From Rickettsiales bacterium (GTDB taxonomy: Bacteria > Pseudomonadota > Alphaproteobacteria > Rs-D84): a stretch of DNA of 64,000 nt. This document shows positions 7,681-63,973 of this stretch, one piece after another. Numbering within the stretch: position 1 is the stretch's first letter; each line of letters begins with the position of its first letter. Under the pieces are notes generated by a model. That model saw only the letters and a program-made list of their open reading frames with translations, ran no database searches and was not told where the DNA came from. The stretch is from positions 1 to 64,000 of the forward strand of contig JAISAB010000020.1 of NCBI GenBank assembly GCA_031266915.1, written 5' to 3'. The position numbers and the translations under genes were made by a program.

Positions 7681-7746
7681 GCGCGTCGCGGGGTGCATCG
7701 ATTCCAACAAAACCAACCACTACAAAAAAGGAAAAAGAGATGAAAC
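7681..7746 (+). repeat. Direct repeat copy 1 containing an RBS and start codon
   Basis: GCGCGTCGCGGGGTGCATCGATTCCAACAAAACCAACCACTACAAAAAAGGAAAAAGAGATGAAAC, near-identical to 7797-7863. Confidence 0.9.
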
Positions 7747-7796: not shown

Positions 7797-7863
7797 GCGC
7801 GTCACAAGGTTGCATCGGTTCCAACAAAACCAACCACTACAAAAAAGGAAAAAGAGATGAAAC
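7797..7863 (+). repeat. Direct repeat copy 2, provides the HU/IHF RBS
   Basis: GCGCGTCACAAGGTTGCATCGGTTCCAACAAAACCAACCACTACAAAAAAGGAAAAAGAGATGAAAC. Confidence 0.9.
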
Positions 7864-10104: not shown

Positions 10105-10770
10105 TTAATTGTTAACTGAATAATAGCAATTTCCTATGTATTCAATGGTGCCTGTATCATCCTCGTTAGTCGCGCCGGCTGGCATATAACAGTTCCCAAT
10201 AACAATACTTCCCGATGCGGACGTCGCGTTGTCGTTTCCGGTCGCGGTCTTGCAGCTTTCGCACCCGCTCAGGCCGTTCGTGCTTCTGCCATAATATCCG
10301 GCTGCGCATCTATAGTCTGAAAAACTCGGGCATCCGCTGCCGCAGGTCACGATTCGCCGTTCATATCCGACTGTATCGGCGACCGTCCAGCCAATGGTAT
10401 CAGCGTTTTCACAAGCCATGCAAGAACTGACATCAGGCGGATTGCTGCATGCTAAACCCAAATTATTCATAATCTCCAGAAAATCCAGGCCGGCGTCAAA
10501 CCAGTTTGATACTTCAGCGAACTGAGAGCCAATGATAAGGTTTTGAACTGAACACATCTGAGAAAACTGAGCTTGCAAACCATAGCAAATAACATTATCT
10601 GCAAAATATTGGACATGTTCGCCATCGCTTTCCCCAACAAGATAATAAATTCTGTAATAAGAGAGCAACTCTGTTGTGAAATCGCAGACAATGTCGGCGT
10701 CCGCGGGCACTGGGTGTGACAGGCCGATTAATGCGGCGGCGCAAATAATAAACGCCTTTGATTTTTTCAT
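10105..10770 (-). CDS. Cys-rich secreted protein (YRC..GYYG..C..C C-terminal domain)
   Basis: Signal peptide MKKSKAFIICAAALIGLSHPVPADA; YRCAAGYYGRSTNGLSGCESC...GNCYMPAGATNEDDTGTIEY; AAGGAGGTT RBS. Confidence 0.7.
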   Translation of the reverse strand: MKKSKAFIICAAALIGLSHPVPADADIVCDFTTELLSYYRIYYLVGESDGEHVQYFADNVICYGLQAQFSQMCSVQNLIIGSQFAEVSNWFDAGLDFLEIMNNLGLACSNPPDVSSCMACENADTIGWTVADTVGYERRIVTCGSGCPSFSDYRCAAGYYGRSTNGLSGCESCKTATGNDNATSASGSIVIGNCYMPAGATNEDDTGTIEYIGNCYYSVNN

Positions 10771-11003
10771 TCCAACCTCCTTTTTGTTTGGGAACGAAAC
10801 AACCGCCCAAAAAGGCGGTCAGGAGGTTGCTAACAATTCGTATGAAATTGTGCCGCGCCTTCGATATATAACGCCAGCCCTCCTGACCAACAGCCAGGAG
10901 CTTTATTTCCATCGCAACAAAAAAACACGCAAAACACGCGCTATTCAAAATTGCGACACATACGAAAGGAGTTAGCACACTCCATCGCGGGAACACCCCG
11001 ACG
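10771..11003 (-). ncRNA. Structured leader RNA, copy B
   Basis: - strand: CGGGGtgttCCCG; GGAG[TGTGCTAA]CTCC with distal TTAGCA; CTCCTG / CAGGAGG / CCTCCTGACC; terminator-like ACCGCCtttttgGGCGGTtgttt. Promoter TTGAAA-17-TATACT. Confidence 0.75.
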
Positions 11004-11095
11004 ACAACGGCAGTATAATTGAAAGCGCCCTGCGTTTCAACAATTTTCTTTTCATGCTTGCGTTTCGGAAACGATTTATATATAATCCGCCGTAC

Positions 11096-17056: not shown

Positions 17057-17920
17057 TTATGTTCCCGACGTGTACGCGCATCCGGTCGCCTCGACCGTGA
17101 AAGTGCCTGATGCGTCGTAATAGGTCCCGGCGGGCAGTTTGCATGTGCCGATGGCAGCATTGAATCCCGCGACATTCGTTCCGCGCGCCTTTATTGTCTG
17201 CGTGCTGTTCGTGTAAATAGTGTCGGATTCCGGGCACTGGGCGCAGCTGGCCACAGCCGCGCCGATAGGTCCGTAATACCCGCTCTTGCATCTGTATCTT
17301 GTGCTGCGGTTGGAACAAGTGCCGGTGCTGACGCAAGTTTCGCCGGTGCAGGTTCCGTCGTATTTCTCTGACTGATAATTCATTCCGGCAACATCTGTAT
17401 AGCCGCTGGAGCCGGCGCACGCTGTGCATAACGCCAGGCACTCTTCGCACACTGGCCAGCCAGCACTGTCGCGCCGCCCCGTATCGGAATATCCGTGCCA
17501 GCAATCGGTGCCGCAGCATTCATATTGTCCGTATTGGCCGCAGCTCGTCGGCGACGAATAGTATGTCAATGTTCCGTATCCTCCGCCGGTTGGTATATCC
17601 GCAAGACCGCAATATCCATTAAAGTGTCCGCTTGCCATGCATTTGGGCTCATAAGTCTCGCTTGGCGGGTTATAGCGGAATGACTCTTCAAAATTTACTA
17701 TGTCCGACGATTTGAAGCAAAGGCAGCTTGCATAAGACTGCGTGCACTCGGCCACCGGATAACATTCGGTGTAGCCGGCGGCGCGCGCGCCGTCATTACC
17801 GCTGACATCGCCTTCGCAATTCCAAGGCTCCACCTTGGGCGCGACCCAGACCGTCCAAGAGTTTGCAAACGCGTTTCCAACAAACATGTACACTGCAATA
17901 ATCAAAATTGATTTCTTCAC
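17057..17920 (-). CDS. Cys-rich secreted protein (YRC..GYYG..C..CP C-terminal domain)
   Basis: GTG start after AGGAGGTTCAG; signal peptide VKKSILIIAVYMFVGNAFA; YRCKSGYYGPIGAAVASCAQCPE...GTCKLPAGTYYDASGTFTVE. Confidence 0.7.
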   Translation of the reverse strand: MKKSILIIAVYMFVGNAFANSWTVWVAPKVEPWNCEGDVSGNDGARAAGYTECYPVAECTQSYASCLCFKSSDIVNFEESFRYNPPSETYEPKCMASGHFNGYCGLADIPTGGGYGTLTYYSSPTSCGQYGQYECCGTDCWHGYSDTGRRDSAGWPVCEECLALCTACAGSSGYTDVAGMNYQSEKYDGTCTGETCVSTGTCSNRSTRYRCKSGYYGPIGAAVASCAQCPESDTIYTNSTQTIKARGTNVAGFNAAIGTCKLPAGTYYDASGTFTVEATGCAYTSGT

Positions 17921-18144
17921 CTGAACCTCCTTTTTTTCAGCGAATGAAAAAACCACCTTGAAAAGGTGGCCGGGAGGCTTCTAACAATCTCATGAATTGC
18001 GCCGCGTATTCAGTATATTCCGCGACCCTCCCGACCTTACGGACGGGATTATTTCTCGGCATGGCACAAAAAAAGCGCAAAAGCGCGCCAAGCCATGACG
18101 CATGAGCAGAGGTTAGAAGACCCCATCATGGGAACACCCCATGA
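17921..18144 (-). ncRNA. Structured leader RNA, copy C
   Basis: - strand: CATGGGgtgttCCCATG; GGGG[TCTTCTAA]CCTC with distal TTAGAA; CCCG / GGTCGGGAGG / CCTCCCGGCC; CCACCTTTTCAAGGTGGTTTTTT. Promoter TTGCTT-17-TATAGT. Confidence 0.75.
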
Positions 18145-18488: not shown

Positions 18489-18703
18489 GTCGCGGAGCGT
18501 TTCCGCGACGGGGTGTAGAAACCTCATCGTATAATTCCAGCCACGGCTGGAGGGCGGAGAATATATTGAATAAACCGCACAATTCTACGAGTTGTTTCTA
18601 ACCTCCGGCCGCTTTTTATAAAGGCGGTTTTTTTGCTTCTGTATAGGAGTACAGAAGCGGTATAGTGTGCATGCGGGGGGCCTCATCAACCCCCCGTTTT
18701 TTT
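18489..18703 (+). ncRNA. Structured leader-type RNA, orphan copy D
   Basis: GTCGCGGAgcgtTTCCGCGAC; GGGG[TGTAGAAA]CCTC with distal TTTCTA (18595-18600); CCAGCC / GGCTGGAGG / CCTCCGGCC; two terminator hairpins. Promoter TTGCAA-17-TAAAAT. Confidence 0.75.
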
Positions 18704-29201: not shown

Positions 29202-29226
29202 AAAGCCCCAAAAGGGGCTTTTATTT
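29202..29226. terminator. Terminator hairpin
   Basis: AAAAGCCCCaaaAGGGGCTTTTATTTTT. Confidence 0.8.
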
Positions 29227-29601
29227 TTAATCCTTGTACACCAGAACCGCCCAATAGCTATCGGGCAGGTTGTTCATGCTCACATCATGGGCCAGCACCC
29301 TGTAACAGGATTCGGATGGAACCATGTTTATCAGAATCATATCCGGATTTATTCTTTCTGCGTCTTCGCCCGTTTGTATACCGGTCATGAATTTCGCGCT
29401 TGCTTTTGATTTTGAAATATTAATCAGTCCGTCGGTTTTCACACACTGGACGATAAAGTCGCCCATTTCCGATGGCGACTGCACGACTTCGCAGTCTTCT
29501 ATAACGTCGGTAATTATTTCATATGGCGTTTTCGGTACATCATCGGCATAGACCGAAAACGGCAGTGCCGCGAACAGTCCAGCTATCAGAGTTCTTTTCA
29601 T
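29227..29601 (-). CDS. Small secreted protein, paralogue of 32259..32633
   Basis: MKRTLIAGLFAALPFSVYADDVPKTPYEIITDVIEDCEVVQSPSEMGDFIVQC. Confidence 0.65.
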   Translation of the reverse strand: MKRTLIAGLFAALPFSVYADDVPKTPYEIITDVIEDCEVVQSPSEMGDFIVQCVKTDGLINISKSKASAKFMTGIQTGEDAERINPDMILINMVPSESCYRVLAHDVSMNNLPDSYWAVLVYKD

Positions 29602-32228: not shown

Positions 32229-32256
32229 AAAAAGCCTCAATCCCGAGGCTTTTGTT
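32229..32256. terminator. Terminator hairpin
   Basis: AAAAAAGCCTCaatcccGAGGCTTTTGTTTTTT. Confidence 0.75.
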
Positions 32257-32258
32257 TT

Positions 32259-32633
32259 TTAATCCTTGCAGACCAGAACCGCCCAATAATCATCGGGCAG
32301 ATTGTTCATGTCCACACTTTCCGCAAGAACCCTGTAACAGGATTCTGACGGGACCACGTTCACCAGAATCATATCCGGGTTGACACTTTCCGCTTCATCG
32401 CCGGTCGGCGTTCCGGTCGAAAATTTTGCGTTTGCATCCGACTTTGAAATATTAATCAATTCGTCGGTTTCCGTGCACTGAACGATAAAGTCGCCAGTTT
32501 CCGACGGGGCCCGCACGACTTCGCAGTCTTCGATAACGGCGGCAATTGTTTCATACGGCGTTTTCGGCGCGTCGTCGGCATAAACCGAAAACGGCAATGC
32601 CGCGAACAGACCGGCAAGCAGAGTTTTCTTCAT
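32259..32633 (-). CDS. Small secreted protein, paralogue of 29227..29601
   Basis: MKKTLLAGLFAALPFSVYADDAPKTPYETIAAVIEDCEVVRAPSETGDFIVQC. Confidence 0.65.
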   Translation of the reverse strand: MKKTLLAGLFAALPFSVYADDAPKTPYETIAAVIEDCEVVRAPSETGDFIVQCTETDELINISKSDANAKFSTGTPTGDEAESVNPDMILVNVVPSESCYRVLAESVDMNNLPDDYWAVLVCKD

Positions 32634-41312: not shown

Positions 41313-42023
41313 ATGAGATTAGATTGTGAACTTGTCATACGCAAAATTTACCCGACCCGCGCCAAGGCGGCCGCGGCTATTATCGCCGGATTGGTTTCTG
41401 TCAACGGTCTGGCAGCGCCCAAGGCCAGTCTGAACGTGTTACCGCACGATTCCATATCGGGCGCTCCGCTGCCCTATATTTCCGGTCGCGGCAGCTTGAA
41501 ATTGGCCGCGGCGCTGGATGCGTTCAATATCGACCCGACAGACATGCTGTGCCTGGACGTCGGTTCCAGCACGGGCGGCTTTACCGAGGTATTATTGAAC
41601 CGCGGCGCGCGGCGCATAATCGCGGTGGATGTCGGCACGGACCAGATGATTCCGGGGCTGCGAAACGACCCGCGTGTGACGTCTTTGGAAGAAACGGATA
41701 TTCGGATGCTGCGGCCGACGGCCTGCGTCGACTTGGTTGTCGCCGACGTGTCTTTTATATCGCTGGCAGACATCGCGGCCAGTCTGGCGGCATGGAACCC
41801 GCCCAAAATCATCGCGCTTATCAAACCTCAGTTCGAAGTCCCGCGCCGCACCGCCGCCAAGGGCAGGGGTGTTATTAAATCCGACGCGGACCGTGTTCGT
41901 TCTATTGAAGCAGTGACGGACGCATTCAAAGCGGCCGGTTTCCGGCGGACCGGATTAATCGAATCCCCGATAAAGGGCGGCAGCGGAAATATGGAATACC
42001 TGGCAATGTTCACAAACCAGTAG
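41313..42023 (+). CDS. tlyA: TlyA-family rRNA methyltransferase
   Basis: TRAKAAAAIIAGLVSVNG; YISGRGSLKLAAALDAF; CLDVGSSTGGFTEVLLNRGARRIIAVDVGTDQM. Confidence 0.92.
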   Translation: MRLDCELVIRKIYPTRAKAAAAIIAGLVSVNGLAAPKASLNVLPHDSISGAPLPYISGRGSLKLAAALDAFNIDPTDMLCLDVGSSTGGFTEVLLNRGARRIIAVDVGTDQMIPGLRNDPRVTSLEETDIRMLRPTACVDLVVADVSFISLADIAASLAAWNPPKIIALIKPQFEVPRRTAAKGRGVIKSDADRVRSIEAVTDAFKAAGFRRTGLIESPIKGGSGNMEYLAMFTNQ

Positions 42024-42112
42024 TGATTAGTGCATAGTGAGTAGTGTTTAGTGAACTAGTTAACTATTCACTATAAACTAAGTACTATTCACTACTCACT
42101 ATTTACTTATTG
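42019..42112. repeat. Inverted 7-bp-period intergenic array (AGTGNNT family)
   Basis: CAGTAGTGATTAGTGCATAGTGAGTAGTGTTTAGTGAACTAGTTAACTATTCACTATAAACTAAGTACTATTCACTACTCACTATTTACT. Confidence 0.85.
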
Positions 42113-43402: not shown

Positions 43403-43617
43403 GTCGCGGAGCGTTTCCGCGATGAGGCTTGATAACCTGTACTTACGGATTCCAGCAATGGCTGGAGGGCGGCGAATATATTGAATAAGTCGTGCAATTC
43501 CGTAGGATTGTTATCAACCTCCAGCCGCTTTTATACAAGGCGGTTTTTTGCTTCTGTATTGGGAGTACGGAAGCGGATAGTGCATGAACGGGGGCCTCAT
43601 CAACCCCCGTTTTTTTC
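43403..43617 (+). ncRNA. Structured leader-type RNA, orphan copy E
   Basis: GTCGCGGAgcgtTTCCGCGA; AGG[CTTGATAA]CCT (43428-43435) with distal TTATCAA (43511-43517); CCAGC / GGCTGGAGG / CCTCCAGCC; two terminators. Promoter TTGCAA-17-TATAGT. Confidence 0.75.
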
Positions 43618-43713: not shown

Positions 43714-44832
43714 ATGAAATCTAAAAAAACAACTTTTCACAATCCGCCATCCGCCAAAAGAATCGGAATCATAACGACCGGCGGCGATTGTTCGGGACTG
43801 AACACCGCGATTCACCGCGTCGCGCTGGGCGCGATGCTGCGCGGCTGGACGGTTTTCGGGATAAAGGACGGCACGGACGGGCTGACCTTTGATTCGGACA
43901 AGGTTATAAAATTCAACCGCAACACGTTGCCGATTGAAGTCGCGCGCCTGTCCGGCAGCATGCTGTGCAACGGCCGTTCGGGAATGGAGAACTTCGAAAC
44001 CGCCGCCAAGGCCGGCCAGCATTCCGAATTCAACAAAAGATTAAAGAAATCGCTGGAAAGCCTGGAACTGGACGCCTTGGTCCTGATTGGCGGCAATGGC
44101 AGCCTGTCGCTGGCATACAGGCATGCCGAAATCTATTCCGGCCTGCAGCTGATTTGCATGCCGAAAACCATCGACAGGGATATTCCGATGACCGACACGA
44201 CCATCGGTTTTTCGACCGCCGTGCAACAGCTGGTGAATTTCTGCGACCAATTGCTGCTGACCGGACGCAGCCACCACAGGTGGTTCGTCGTCCAGACGAT
44301 GGGGCGCGATACCGGCGCATTGGCGCTGAACGCGGGCGTCGCCCTGGGTGCGGATGCGATTTTGATTCCTGAAATCAAGTTCAACGTCAACAGCCTGATT
44401 GACCATATAAACAACCAGCCGCGCGATTACGGAATTATTTTGGTGTCCGAGGGGATTTCTCTGCGCGGTCATTCGGGCCGGCCGGCGGAAATGATTTCGC
44501 GTCAGCTGAGCGCCGCGAACATCGCGAACCGCGCGGCGTTTCCCGAACACACGCAAAGGGCGGGCGACACGACCGCGGATGACCGTCTGCTGGCGACGGC
44601 GATGGCGAATTGCGCCCTGGACGCGATTGAGAATAACGAGACCTATGTCATGACCGCGGTCCGCGGCGGTCGGTTCAAAACGATTCCTTTGTCCGATTTC
44701 TTCGACGCGGGCGACATCGTCAGCGACCCCAAGATTCCGAATATGAAGGTATCGAACGAATACGTCCAGCCCGATGACCCATTGTTGGACATCGCCGCCG
44801 CGATGGGGATTTATATCGGGGAAACGAAATAA
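43714..44832 (+). CDS. pfkA: 6-phosphofructokinase family protein
   Basis: RIGIITTGGDCSGLNTAIHRVA...LIGGNGSLSLAYRHAEI...MPKTIDRDIPMTDTTIGFSTAV. Confidence 0.93.
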   Translation: MKSKKTTFHNPPSAKRIGIITTGGDCSGLNTAIHRVALGAMLRGWTVFGIKDGTDGLTFDSDKVIKFNRNTLPIEVARLSGSMLCNGRSGMENFETAAKAGQHSEFNKRLKKSLESLELDALVLIGGNGSLSLAYRHAEIYSGLQLICMPKTIDRDIPMTDTTIGFSTAVQQLVNFCDQLLLTGRSHHRWFVVQTMGRDTGALALNAGVALGADAILIPEIKFNVNSLIDHINNQPRDYGIILVSEGISLRGHSGRPAEMISRQLSAANIANRAAFPEHTQRAGDTTADDRLLATAMANCALDAIENNETYVMTAVRGGRFKTIPLSDFFDAGDIVSDPKIPNMKVSNEYVQPDDPLLDIAAAMGIYIGETK

Positions 44833-48058: not shown

Positions 48059-48283
48059 CATCGCGGGGCGTTCCCGCGATGGGGCTTGATAACCTCTTGT
48101 TAGCGTCGTGACGAATTTACACGCTTGTGCGTCTTTTTTCGTATAACGGCGAAAAATCAACTCCTGACTTAGTCAGGAGGGCGGCGATATATCGAAATAA
48201 GCCGCGCAATTCTAACAATTGTTATCAACCTCCTGACCACCCTTTCAAGGTGGTTTTTGCTTTACCTAAAAAAGGAGGTTTTA
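48059..48283 (+). ncRNA. Structured leader RNA, copy A
   Basis: CGCGGGgcgttCCCGCG; GGGG[CTTGATAA]CCTC (loop 48085-48092) with distal TTATCAA (48222-48228); CTCCTGAC / GTCAGGAGG / CCTCCTGAC; CCACCctttcaaGGTGGTTTTT; AGGAGGTT RBS. Promoter TTGATT-17-TAGTAT. Confidence 0.8.
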
Positions 48284-49042
48284 ATGAAATTTAAATTTTT
48301 CGCAACTTTTATGACAATAATTTTGACATCGACGACACATACCTGGGCGGCATCGTGCTGGATAGCTACAAAACCAACCAGCAGTAACTACATCGCATGC
48401 CTGCAGTCGCACACAGGATATTGGAATTGCAATTCTTCCAGCAGTTGCGGCAGCTCACAAGTAACTGCTGTCACAGGCAAACCCTATGGATTTTCTGATG
48501 CCAATACAATGAGCACGAGCGAAATGACGTCCTGCGGTGTAATCTGTACTCCATATGGTTTTAGAATGTTTGCTAATAACGATGCTGAAGCGATTGATTG
48601 CAACGGTACATGGGATTTAAATTCCAGCACTCGCGAAGCAGTATGTCAATGCAACGTTAGAAGCTGCACTGCTTGCAACAGCGTGTCGGTCGAGCAATGG
48701 ATTGCTATGAGCGGAACGGGCACGATCGTGTTCCAAGTGAAGCAGACCCGCACCGCCACGTGTTCAGGAAACACCTGCACCAGCAACGGCAGCTGCTCTA
48801 CCGGAAGCTGGACCAACACCAACAATTACCGCTGCTCGGCGGGATATTATGGCAGCGTTTCGACCAGCAACTACAGCTGCGCGCTGTGTCCGTGCATGAC
48901 AGACACTGGCGGCGTCAATCGCTGCGGCGCCAGTTCCGCCGGTACTACTCTTGTCAGTGGATGCGTCATGGCGACCGAATACGAATTTAACGACGGGACC
49001 GGCGATTATTCATTTACGACCGCATGTCCGGCATCATTGTAA
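48284..49042 (+). CDS. Cys-rich secreted protein (YRC..GYYG..C..CP domain)
   Basis: Signal peptide MKFKFFATFMTIILTSTTHTWA; NYRCSAGYYGSVSTSNYSCALCPC; AAAGGAGGTTTTA RBS. Confidence 0.7.
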   Translation: MKFKFFATFMTIILTSTTHTWAASCWIATKPTSSNYIACLQSHTGYWNCNSSSSCGSSQVTAVTGKPYGFSDANTMSTSEMTSCGVICTPYGFRMFANNDAEAIDCNGTWDLNSSTREAVCQCNVRSCTACNSVSVEQWIAMSGTGTIVFQVKQTRTATCSGNTCTSNGSCSTGSWTNTNNYRCSAGYYGSVSTSNYSCALCPCMTDTGGVNRCGASSAGTTLVSGCVMATEYEFNDGTGDYSFTTACPASL

Positions 49043-49076: not shown

Positions 49077-49165
49077 GATAAATAGTCAATAGCGAATAGT
49101 GCTTAGTTTATAGTGCATAGTTAGACAGTTCACTAATCACTATAAACTATGCACTATTCACTAGT
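49077..49165. repeat. Inverted 7-bp-period intergenic array (AGTGNNT family)
   Basis: AATAGTCAATAGCGAATAGTGCTTAGTTTATAGTGCATAGTTAGACAGTTCACTAATCACTATAAACTATGCACTATTCACTAGTG. Confidence 0.85.
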
Positions 49166-49380
49166 GTTTCATGACCAACAATCTCCCCGAATTTTCATCG
49201 GCAACAAGTTGCCGGAAAATTCTCCCCTCTTTAACAAGAAGGGGCAACAGCCCAGAACAGCTCGCCGACACAAGACTTGGCACTTGTCCCCCTTGATTCA
49301 GCTCTTGTCCCCCTTAGTAAAGGGGAAAAGTTTTTGTTAGCGCCAGCGTTACAAAAACTTGGGGGATGCCGGTTTTTTTA

Positions 49381-49470
49381 ATCACTAGTGAATAGTGATT
49401 AGTGCATAGTGTTTAGTTATTAGTAAACTATTTAACTATACACTATAAACTAAGCACTATTCACTAATGT
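49381..49470. repeat. Inverted 7-bp-period intergenic array (AGTGNNT family)
   Basis: ATCACTAGTGAATAGTGATTAGTGCATAGTGTTTAGTTATTAGTAAACTATTTAACTATACACTATAAACTAAGCACTATTCACTAATG. Confidence 0.85.
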
Positions 49471-49487
49471 TTTTTTACGAGTCACGA

Positions 49488-50857: not shown

Positions 50858-51310
50858 ATGGACCCGATGAGACAAGCGATTATTTTGGCGCGCCGCGCCG
50901 CGGCGCATGACGATGTGCCGATTGGCGCGATTGTCGTGCAGGGCGGCCGCATTATCGCGCGCGGCGAAAACCAGGTTCAATTAAAGCGCAATCCGACGCT
51001 GCACGCGGAAATCGTCGCGCTGAACCGCGCGGTGAAAAAGCTGGGGACCAAGTTTCTGGATGATTGCGAAATCTATGTCACACTGGAACCCTGCGCGATG
51101 TGCGCTGTCGCGCTGTCGCTGGCGCGCGTATCCAAGATTCATTTCGCGGCCGCCGATGAAAAAGGTGGCGGCGTCCGGCACAATGCGCGCGTGTTTGAAA
51201 CGGACAAACATCTGTGGAAACCGGAAATTATCGAGCATCCGGAACACGCGGCCGAATCCGCACAAATGTTAAGAGATTTTTTCAAATCAAAACGCAAGAA
51301 TAACCACTAG
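50858..51310 (+). CDS. tadA: tRNA-specific adenosine deaminase
   Basis: DVPIGAIVVQGGRIIARGENQVQLKRNPTLHAEIVALNRA...VTLEPCAMCAVALSLARV. Confidence 0.93.
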   Translation: MDPMRQAIILARRAAAHDDVPIGAIVVQGGRIIARGENQVQLKRNPTLHAEIVALNRAVKKLGTKFLDDCEIYVTLEPCAMCAVALSLARVSKIHFAAADEKGGGVRHNARVFETDKHLWKPEIIEHPEHAAESAQMLRDFFKSKRKNNH

Positions 51311-51392
51311 TGCATAGTGAGTAGTGCTTAGTTTATAGTTAACTAGTTCACTAATCACTATAAACTAAGCACTATTCACTACTGACTATTTT
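51305..51392. repeat. Inverted 7-bp-period intergenic array (AGTGNNT family)
   Basis: CACTAGTGCATAGTGAGTAGTGCTTAGTTTATAGTTAACTAGTTCACTAATCACTATAAACTAAGCACTATTCACTACTGACTATT. Confidence 0.85.
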
Positions 51393-52865
51393 TAGCAGGT
51401 TCTTTCCAGTCATCTCATGTGGCTGCGGCATACCCAGAATCTTCAACATGGTCGGGGCTAAATCCGACAGGCCCCCCGATGCGACAGCACGCACGTCATT
51501 GGACACAATAATCAAATTAACCTGATTTGTCGTATGCGCGGTCCAGGGTGTGTTGCTTTCGTAATCCCACAGCTTTTCGGCATTGCCATGGTCCGCTGTT
51601 ATCAGCATCGTTCCGCCCAGTTCCAACACCGCAGGGACAAGTTTGCTTAATTGTTCATCCAGGCATTCCATCGCCCGGATTGCTGCGGATTCCACAGCCG
51701 TGTGCCCGACCATATCCCCATTGGCATAGTTCAAAATCACAACGTCGAACTTCGACAATCTGTCCAACAAGGCGCGCGTGATTTCCGGCGCGGACATTTC
51801 CGGTTTCATATCGAACGTCGCGACGTCCGGGGACGCAATCAGGACTTTTTCCTCGCCCGGGTAATCGATGTTTCTTTCCGCATCGAAAAAGTATGTCACG
51901 TGATTGTACTTTTCCGTCTCGGCGATGCGCAGCTGGGTCTTGCCGGCGGCCGCCAAAACATCGCCCAACGTGTTTTTGACATTTATGTCGTCCAGCAGCG
52001 CGGGACACAGCTCGTCCAATCCTTCGCCGTATTGCGAGAAACACAGAACGCGCGCATTTGTCGTAACGATGCTGCGCATAATCTGGCGCGCGCGATCGCT
52101 GCGGTAATTGCCGAACAGGAACCCGTCAGCCTCATGAATAATGGATGATGGATGATGGATGATGGTCGGTCTTATAAATTCATCGGTTTCGCCGCGTTCG
52201 TACGCCGCCACGACGGCTTCGTCGATTGATGCGGCGGAAAAAGCGCTTTCGCCATGCGCGATGGCGTTGAACGCCGATTCCGTGCGGTCCAGATTCTGGT
52301 TCCGGTCCATCGCGTAATAGCGTCCGGATACTGTCGCGAACCAAGCCCGGCCCGACGCCAGGGCATCGGCCAATTCGGATTTAATCAATTCGACATAGGC
52401 CGTCGCGGACTTCGGCAAAGTATCGCGGCCATCAGCGATAAAATGTATGGCGATTTTCAGGCCCGACGCCAGAATCCGCTTGGCGATAATTAAAATCTCG
52501 CCGATGTCGGAATGAACGCGGCCGTCGGACATCAGACCGGCCAAGTGAACGATGCCGCCGGATGCCTTGACGGCGTCGATAAATTCGCGCAAGGGTTTGT
52601 TTTTGTCCCAATCTTCCAATTCAAAACGGCGCAGATACTGGTTGACGATGCGGCCCGATCCAATCGTGATATGCCCGACCTCGGAATTGCCCATAGTGTC
52701 CGGGGGCAGCCCGACGGCCGGCCCGCTGGTATCCAGCCTGGAATTCGGATATTTCGCCAGCAATTCGTCAAAAAATGGCATTTTGGCCAGGGAAACCGCG
52801 TTGTGTTCCCGGGCATTACTGATTCCGACGCCGTCAAGAATACATAGAACCAAAGGCTTTGTCAT
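51372..52865 (-). CDS. gpmI: 2,3-bisphosphoglycerate-independent phosphoglycerate mutase
   Basis: KPLVLCILDGVGIS...TSGPAVGLPPDTMGNSEVGHITIGSGRIVNQ...LITADHGNAEKLWD. Confidence 0.97.
   Translation of the reverse strand: MTKPLVLCILDGVGISNAREHNAVSLAKMPFFDELLAKYPNSRLDTSGPAVGLPPDTMGNSEVGHITIGSGRIVNQYLRRFELEDWDKNKPLREFIDAVKASGGIVHLAGLMSDGRVHSDIGEILIIAKRILASGLKIAIHFIADGRDTLPKSATAYVELIKSELADALASGRAWFATVSGRYYAMDRNQNLDRTESAFNAIAHGESAFSAASIDEAVVAAYERGETDEFIRPTIIHHPSSIIHEADGFLFGNYRSDRARQIMRSIVTTNARVLCFSQYGEGLDELCPALLDDINVKNTLGDVLAAAGKTQLRIAETEKYNHVTYFFDAERNIDYPGEEKVLIASPDVATFDMKPEMSAPEITRALLDRLSKFDVVILNYANGDMVGHTAVESAAIRAMECLDEQLSKLVPAVLELGGTMLITADHGNAEKLWDYESNTPWTAHTTNQVNLIIVSNDVRAVASGGLSDLAPTMLKILGMPQPHEMTGKNLLKIVSSE
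52136..52166. repeat. 7-bp-period array in frame in gpmI
   Basis: AATGGATGATGGATGATGGATGATGG; encodes IIHHPSSIIH. Confidence 0.8.
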
Positions 52866-63276: not shown

Positions 63277-63332
63277 GCCCGCAACATAGCAAAAACCGAA
63301 AACAATTTGCAAGGAAGAAAAGCAAAAGAAAT

Positions 63333-63427
63333 CACTAGTGCATAGTGATTAGTTAATAGTGCATAGTTTTATAGTGAAATGTTTAACTATTCACTAATCA
63401 CTAAGCACTACTCACTATGCACTAGTT
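63333..63427. repeat. Inverted 7-bp-period intergenic array (AGTGNNT family)
   Basis: CACTAGTGCATAGTGATTAGTTAATAGTGCATAGTTTTATAGTGAAATGTTTAACTATTCACTAATCACTAAGCACTACTCACTATGCACTAG. Confidence 0.85.
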
Positions 63428-63973
63428 ACTAATTCTATGAACGTACATCTTCCAATACTTCATAAAAATAGTCATGTCGGTTTCAGGATTCCGGGCGACG
63501 GACAGCGTGTCCCAGTCGATAACCGCCACGATGTTCATATTCTTGTCATACAGAAAATTTGATTCGTTCAAATCGAAATGCGCCAAGACCAATTTCTTGT
63601 TATCCGTCGGCTTTTCACGGGTGCGCAGCTGCATGCTGTCCATAAATCTTTCGTTATTTGGAATTTTGCTGACATCGATGCGCTGCAGTTCGGCAATGAT
63701 TTCCCCCAGCTGCCGCAGCAATTTCTTTTCGTTTTTCAGAACCTTGGTTTTGGAAAATTTATAGATGGAATGCCCGCCGACCATTTTGCACAGGTACATG
63801 GGGGATTTTCTGTCGACCACGACCCGCGGGATATTAACGCTGACAAAAGGGCGGATATGGTTGACCAGAAATTCGAATTCTTTCAGCCGTTTGTTCGACA
63901 CGTTTCGAAAGACCTTGACGAAATACTTGCCGTTTACCAAATAGACCGCGCGGTTCAGCGTTATCTGGCGCAC
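63422..63973 (-). CDS. Kinase-like/aminoglycoside phosphotransferase-fold protein
   Basis: VLAHFDLNESNFLYDKNMNIVAVIDWDTLSVARNPETDM; may begin upstream of the window edge. Confidence 0.65.
   Translation of the reverse strand: MRQITLNRAVYLVNGKYFVKVFRNVSNKRLKEFEFLVNHIRPFVSVNIPRVVVDRKSPMYLCKMVGGHSIYKFSKTKVLKNEKKLLRQLGEIIAELQRIDVSKIPNNERFMDSMQLRTREKPTDNKKLVLAHFDLNESNFLYDKNMNIVAVIDWDTLSVARNPETDMTIFMKYWKMYVHRISN

Follow-up and report, generated by a model that had tools for sequence, protein, structure and literature searches.

What kind of RNA element stands before three genes for secreted, cysteine-rich proteins in this genome, and does it serve those genes alone? The genes lie in the first 64,000 bases of a contig from a Rickettsiales bacterium (bases 1-64000 of JAISAB010000020.1, our contig C26, hereafter the window; genome 1.09 Mb, 95% complete), and an earlier sequence-only reading had taken them, with the structured leader upstream of each, for a modular family of surface or effector proteins under common control. 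Our best reading, drawn from sequence comparison, is that an RNA switch of phage antirepressor genes would have been multiplied and put to new use in a presumed secretome regulon, with a presumed trigger, in gut Alphaproteobacteria of one order with reduced genomes. The positions of the three genes had been given correctly in the earlier reading, which left the minus strand of two of them unsaid:

48284..49042, plus strand: secreted Cys-rich protein of 252 amino acids with 21 Cys; C-terminal YRC..GYYG / CYxPAG-type domain at about 48665-49036; profile E 7.5e-21
10105..10770, minus strand: secreted Cys-rich protein of 221 amino acids; common C-terminal domain 10114-10422; profile E 4.8e-26
17057..17920, minus strand: secreted Cys-rich protein of 287 amino acids, GTG start; common C-terminal domain 17063-17428; profile E 1.5e-24

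Architecture of the leader RNA

As had been noted earlier, a copy of the leader (A, B and C) is found directly before each of the three genes, with 28-30 nucleotides (nt) between the end of its core and the start codon. The parts follow the same order in all three: a hairpin P1 of the GUCGCGG..CCGCGA type, P2 of the form GRGG-[s1]-CCYC, s2, the P3 domain (a short internal hairpin, often with a U-run), arms a and b, P5 with its conserved internal loop GAAUAUAUUGAAUA, s2', s1', a', a terminator, AAGGAGGU and the start codon. Segments s1 and s2 are complementary to s1' and s2', respectively, giving long-range helices, while arm b is complementary to a as well as to a', so that a:b and b:a' are mutually exclusive. 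The a' segment, containing CCUCC, is also able to pair with the Shine-Dalgarno (SD) sequence. The parts are located as follows:

48060..48283, plus strand: leader copy A; P1 48060-48080, s1 48086-48093, s2 48097-48103, P3 48104-48151, a 48161-48168, b 48172-48180
Copy A, 3' part, plus strand: P5 48180-48205, s2' 48212-48218, s1' 48221-48228, a'/anti-SD 48229-48237, terminator 48236-48258, SD 48272-48282
10771..11005, minus strand: leader copy B; P1 10984-11005, s1 10971-10977, s2 10959-10966, a 10893-10900, b 10879-10888; 76.1 bits (R1)
Copy B, 3' part, minus strand: s2' 10837-10844, s1' 10828-10834, a' 10817-10826, terminator 10797-10819, SD 10774-10782
17921..18144, minus strand: leader copy C; P1 18126-18144, s1 18112-18119, s2 18101-18106, a 18041-18048, b 18027-18036; 80.9 bits (R1)
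Copy C, 3' part, minus strand: s2' 17989-17994, s1' 17978-17985, a' 17968-17977, terminator 17947-17971, SD 17924-17932

Scores are those of R1, a covariance model built from the leader core; copy A reached 86.7 bits with it and 31.1 bits with the Rfam model of sRNA-Xcc1 (RF02221). The minimum free energy fold of leader A contains P1, s1:s1', s2:s2', a:b and a':SD together, at -87.8 kcal/mol (z -6.4), and none of 200 shuffled sequences was as stable. Five matches to the core pattern lie in the window, where shuffling predicts 0.05; the whole genome has 21, and a backward control none. The letters of the internal loop (GAAUA..UUGAAUA) are nearly invariant in 21 copies. Boxes resembling TTGCAA-N17-TATAAT were seen by eye directly 5' of P1 in many copies, and a promoter scan gave no strong site for copy A.

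Pairing was assessed by a permutation test, in which the duplex energies within each copy were set against those obtained after exchanging partners between copies, over 10,000 permutations. Under this control, which preserves composition and not the relatedness of the copies, the own partners in 69 copies of the own genome outscored the exchanged ones in every permutation, whether the pairing was s2's1' with the 5' region, a:b or b:a', and the same held for all three pairings in the 39 weaker own copies taken alone and in 27 copies from relatives. Self-complementary, copy-specific 5' and 3' keys were found in own copies, relatives and sRNA-Xcc1 loci alike (0/10,000 permutations). A U-run ends 90 of the 97 copies. 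Over all copies, a' with its neighbours is specific for its cognate SD (0/10,000), and SD sequences track a' across leader types, AAGGAGG occurring with CCTCC and AGGGGTCGGGAATG with TTCCCGACC.

Homology to sRNA-Xcc1 and distribution

Searching the own genome with RF02221, a model built by others, gave 27 matches (best 46 bits, E 2.4e-7, over the full length of the model, positions 1-87). In the reverse direction, 13 of the 32 loci of true sRNA-Xcc1 were matched by R1, each at the corresponding place (best E 4.2e-9), and the internal loop is recognizable in sRNA-Xcc1 as GAAUACAA..GGGAAUA. Since the matches are significant in both directions, the leader of the window and sRNA-Xcc1 are, by sequence, homologous, although the window copies fall below the Rfam cut-off.

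sRNA-Xcc1 has been described as a trans-acting small RNA of Xanthomonas, noted upstream of symE; its link to symE has been noted in Xanthomonas integrons, and it has relatives in integron cassettes (PMC12444791). Of 398 Pseudomonadota genomes, 39 have a match above the cut-off, and the 30 loci that were read run through P2/s1, s2, P3 with a U-run hairpin, core, s2' and s1' to an open reading frame (ORF). The ORFs include antirepressor-type proteins (Bro-N, KilA-N, P22_AR_N, Phage_pRha) and SymE proteins. Two phages, Pmp1 of Pasteurella and S1249 of Aggregatibacter, carry the RNA, again over the cut-off, immediately in front of ant; in S1249, Q lies on its other side. Many sRNA-Xcc1 loci repeat s1 and s2 around the SD, for example CTGAAAGA-GGAG-ACACAAG-CCATG in locus L163, which indicates that s2's1' pairs with the ribosome-binding site (RBS) of its own locus; the energies agree, with means of -17.2 kcal/mol for own and -12.1 kcal/mol for swapped sites (0/10,000 permutations).

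The leader was present in 172 of 190 genomes of the order Rs-D84, often in at least 20 copies. Members of this order have been described as parasites or obligate symbionts whose genomes measure about 1 Mb (PMC12306168). Among 289 sampled genomes of the class it was present in 19, three of which are the own genome and two others of its family. Named matches belonged to uncultured gut Alphaproteobacteria and one metagenome-assembled genome labelled 'Rickettsiales', and a scan of IMG/VR viral contigs with the leader pattern returned none.

Leader copies and the genes behind them

The own genome carries at least 81 leader copies in its 1.09 Mb, as counted from profile searches and fetched stretches: 71 found by R1 (best E 9e-28), eight by RF02221 only and two upstream of family genes. 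About 56 stand 15-45 nt before an SD and start codon on the same strand, and about 20 precede no gene. A signal-peptide-like start, called by a crude hydropathy rule and not by SignalP, was found in 38 of 45 scored leader-linked ORFs and in 8 of 31 other genes of the window (Fisher p 3e-7). This placement and this bias, together with pairing maintained by covariation in strong and weak copies, like kinds of gene behind the leader in other genera, and s1/s2 too divergent between copies for recent copying, make it highly improbable that the leader is a selfish mobile repeat standing before genes merely by chance, for all its copy number and its relatives in phages and integron cassettes (PMC12444791).

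Among the leader-linked genes, 22 encode the Cys-rich C-terminal domain. A profile of that domain recovered 28 genes genome-wide, and in 22 of them the leader lies immediately upstream of the gene or at the head of its operon (hypergeometric probability about 2e-24, taking about 60 of about 1050 genes as leader genes), so it is not the case that most members lack it. The six without a leader are C11:11422, C5:14366, C6:5730, C10:7510, C11:1840 and C1:57622 (contig and position), and three of these follow immediately on another reading frame, an operon-like arrangement. Upstream of C10:7510-7863 there is a different anti-RBS hairpin (CCTAATCCAAACCTCCCTTTGGATTAGG ... ATAATCCAAAGGGAGGTTTTTTG; locus L200), which may represent a leader of another kind. 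In a further genus of this family, represented by four genomes, R1 matches lie upstream of, and on the same strand as, 22 of the 30 top-ranking members.

The link of leader and family proposed earlier thus stands; the leader is not private to the family, since about 34 of the about 56 gene-linked copies precede genes outside it. A second secreted family (MKKSTI...LLVWAF...GAFA) accounts for about 11 copies. Others precede a VirB2-like small membrane protein (recognized by eye, with no Pfam match), also found behind the leader in genomes L072 (same genus) and L075 (another genus), a trypsin-like protease, a YadA-anchor protein, a PAP2 phosphatase and six small helix-turn-helix proteins. The unit of regulation is, as far as can be read from these genes, more aptly called a secretome regulon with some regulators added, whose common control would extend over the family and beyond it. 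Near-identical leaders at L099 (C19:348-453), L105 (C9:237-343) and L106 (C4:11070-11176) precede near-identical small XRE-type regulators, which match transcriptional repressors in PHROGs; these leaders may represent a phage-like ancestral use.

The window has two further copies, neither followed by a gene of the family:

18489..18696, plus strand: stand-alone copy D, type II, without P3 and without ORF; core 18489-18634; 93.3 bits (R1), also an RF02221 match
Downstream part of copy D, plus strand: hairpin with SD-like loop TAGGAG 18635-18658; second terminator 18675-18696
43403..43609, plus strand: stand-alone copy E, type II; core 43403-43549; 89.2 bits (R1)
Downstream part of copy E, plus strand: hairpin with SD-like loop 43550-43574; second terminator 43589-43609

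The next gene after copy E starts at 43714 and, judged by eye, is phosphofructokinase-like. Stand-alone copies of two types, both with full core and terminators and no ORF, occur in the genome: at least six of type II (D, E and four elsewhere), with a second hairpin bearing an SD-like GGGAG/AGGAG loop, and about eight of type III, with a long hairpin containing UCUCUCC. Examples of the latter are C3:10180-10289, C25:15101-15212 and C26:64403-64505 (hairpin of the kind GTGGGGC..GCCCCAC with conserved TCTCTCC), and their TCTCTCC could pair in trans with SD sequences.

The C-terminal domain

The modular character proposed for the three window proteins was confirmed: all have a signal peptide, their N-terminal halves differ, and BLASTP among them aligned only the C-terminal halves (E 1e-6, 5e-4 and 0.014). 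The motif reads YRCSAGYYG in 48284-49042, YRCAAGYYG in 10105-10770 and YRCKSGYYG in 17057-17920, and the corresponding DNA pattern for YRCxxGYYG occurred nine times in the genome and not at all in a backward control. Alignment of 18 own-genome domains gave the consensus YRCxxGYYGx(n)CxxC ... CYIPAGxxxxDxTGxFxxxxxCxY, in which columns C, C, C, C, D, G and C are invariant. The GxCxxPAGTxxDxxGTF pattern named earlier accordingly proved to be a real conserved block, CYxPAGxxxxDxxGxF.

Whole window proteins gave nothing significant against Pfam, NCBIfam and PHROGs, and a PDB sequence search gave no match. When domains were isolated, 3 of the 18 matched Ephrin_rec_like (PF07699) at E <= 0.1 (best 3.1e-5); the three window proteins gave no match to it. 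Any likeness to Ephrin_rec_like and TNFR-like Cys-rich modules would lie in the C..GYY...C..CP pattern; to our knowledge, the CYxPAGxxxxDxxGxF block stands outside those families. Structure prediction, suggested in the earlier reading, yielded an AlphaFold model (mean predicted local distance difference test 76.6) made mainly of short strands and no convincing structural neighbour: the best Foldseek hit in PDB had E 7.1, and the best VIA-align hit was OX40 of the TNFR family at Z 3.0, weak and by itself no evidence. Naming the fold was dropped on these values. Probably the domain serves outside the cell as a module for attachment or interaction, rich in disulphides, and this is the least certain part of our explanation.

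Proposed mechanism and alternatives

We consider it likely that this bacterial lineage has reused a phage switch of the C4/CI/IsrK/sRNA-Xcc1 kind and that the leader acts in cis as an off-switch with two layers. Its transcript would begin immediately upstream of P1. In the fold taken by default, s1 and s2 would pair with s1' and s2', and a with b, and the intrinsic terminator would form; in a transcript that reads through in this fold, a' (AACCUCC) would mask the SD (GGAGGUU) and keep translation off. A terminator and a masked SD lower expression, and C4-type RNAs act by pairing with the RBS. In the alternative fold, b:a' would remove the anti-SD arm along with the 5' edge of the terminator stem, and the secreted protein would be made. 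Candidates for tipping the balance, perhaps jointly over many copies, are RNAs in trans (terminated leaders or stand-alone copies), a protein, or a signal acting on the conserved GAAUAUAUUGAAUA internal loop.

Several observations weigh against this proposal. All RF02221 matches are below the Rfam cut-off (best 46 against 53 bits), and six of the 28 family genes stand without a leader. Specificity of a' for its own SD is weak within the close type (518/10,000 for copies of at least 60 bits, against 25/10,000 for the rest), from which it follows that part of the signal is merely any SD pairing with CCUCC. In the window lineage, s1'/s2' fit their own RBS no better than those of others (-8.27 versus -8.35; 5904/10,000), which indicates that target pairing of the C4 type is gone there. 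With these RBS keys lost and a' matching the SD, sequestration of the SD beside the terminator seems to have taken the place of target pairing.

The alternative that survives best is a riboswitch-like or protein-bound leader, whose core binds one small molecule or protein that sets b:a' against a:b in all copies, the resemblance to sRNA-Xcc1 being ancestry only. An internal loop almost invariant in 21 copies and still recognizable in sRNA-Xcc1 would suit such a pocket, and exclusive a:b and b:a' helices with a terminator and an SD are the usual expression platform of riboswitches. Against it, the Rfam scan of the window at gathering score found no known riboswitch or cis-regulator (tRNA alone), the genes behind the leader share no metabolic theme, and hypervariable s1/s2 segments fit antisense keys better than a ligand pocket; we regard this explanation as possible and clearly less likely than the cis-acting switch.

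Somewhat more doubtful is a network in trans, in which the stand-alone type II copies (with their SD-like loop) and type III copies (with their UCUCUCC hairpin) are small RNAs opening or closing the leaders, as short IsrK acts on its long form. The number of such copies with full core, terminators and no ORF speaks for it, the conserved GGGAG/AGGAG loop of type II could compete for a', and the short form of IsrK does act in trans on the read-through form (PMC4825925). When all s2's1' segments were screened against all 5' regions, on the other hand, many scattered non-cognate matches appeared and no clear donor-target set. Less probable again is a scheme in which each leader holds a private key pair (s1/s2), stand-alone copies serve as selectors in trans and surface proteins are switched singly, in the manner of antigenic variation by orthogonal antisense RNAs. 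The cis-acting switch remains the preferred explanation.

A reading of the leader as an integron attC site was ruled out: AAC/GTT ends are present, RYYY/RRRY fails (e.g. TAGAAAC/GTTTCTA), and the copies are dispersed on both strands and do not form a tandem cassette array.

Other repeats in the window

Apart from the leader, the window holds an interspersed repeat composed of TAGTGATTAGTGCATAGTGTTTAGT-like words, in which long inverted pairs occur (e.g. 49079-49163 with 49393-49477, 85% complementary), a pair of direct repeats and a duplicated stretch:

42010-42106, 49079-49175, 49382-49478, 51297-51393 and 63318-63434: interspersed repeat
7691-7746 and 7808-7863: direct repeats of 56 nt, 96% identical, 117 nt apart, ending in AAAAAAGGAAAAAGAGATGAAAC (SD plus start-like)
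29219-29518 and 32251-32550: duplicated 300-nt stretch, 79% identity, covering two minus-strand ORFs of 124 amino acids

Comparison with known RNA switches

If the explanation is right, an RNA of phage immunity would here have become, across a whole genome, a means of bacterial regulation, which could be studied in a very small gene set, and sRNA-Xcc1 is suggested to be one branch of a widespread leader class that acts on the RBS of antirepressor and symE genes to control them. The pieces belong to known kinds; new, as far as our literature search shows, are the expansion to about eighty copies, the loss of the RBS keys, the secretome link and the joining of sRNA-Xcc1 with antirepressor control. 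That search, most subscription papers being outside its reach, found no paper naming both 'sRNA-Xcc1' and 'antirepressor'.

With sRNA-Xcc1 the window leaders share the homologous core b-P5-P6-a' and the order P2/s1, s2, P3 with U-run hairpin, core, s2', s1' and gene start. They differ in a shorter P5 (GAATATATTGAATA versus GAATACAACACCCGCAAGGGGAATA), a full terminator after a', no copy of s1/s2 at the RBS, a secreted-protein gene behind, and dozens of copies per genome. Pairing of sRNA-Xcc1 with its own RBS follows the logic of P1 C4 and of P4 CI with seqA/seqC. C4 of P1/P7 (RF01695, c4-a1b1, c4-2; CL00128) likewise has two short keys complementary to upstream sites; in the phage sRNA-Xcc1 loci the keys are complementary to the antirepressor RBS as well. 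The window copies have lost these RBS keys. Of these models only c4-a1b1 matched copy A, below threshold (24.1 bits, gathering 46.7), with no match to C4 and c4-2. A sub-threshold c4-2 RNA (34.8 of 41 bits) was seen in L153 at 2890-2958 on the minus strand, about 1.3 kb from an sRNA-Xcc1 element, and the two may share one prophage region.

In IsrK of Gifsy-1 (RF01394), as in the P4 CI RNA with seqA/seqC, a short terminated RNA and a read-through mRNA share one leader. The Gifsy-1 locus has the order antQ-isrK-anrP (PMC4825925), and that of phage S1249, Q - RNA - antirepressor, is the same. The isrK model scored the window leader at chance level (17 bits), and IsrK differs further in that its short form activates its target.
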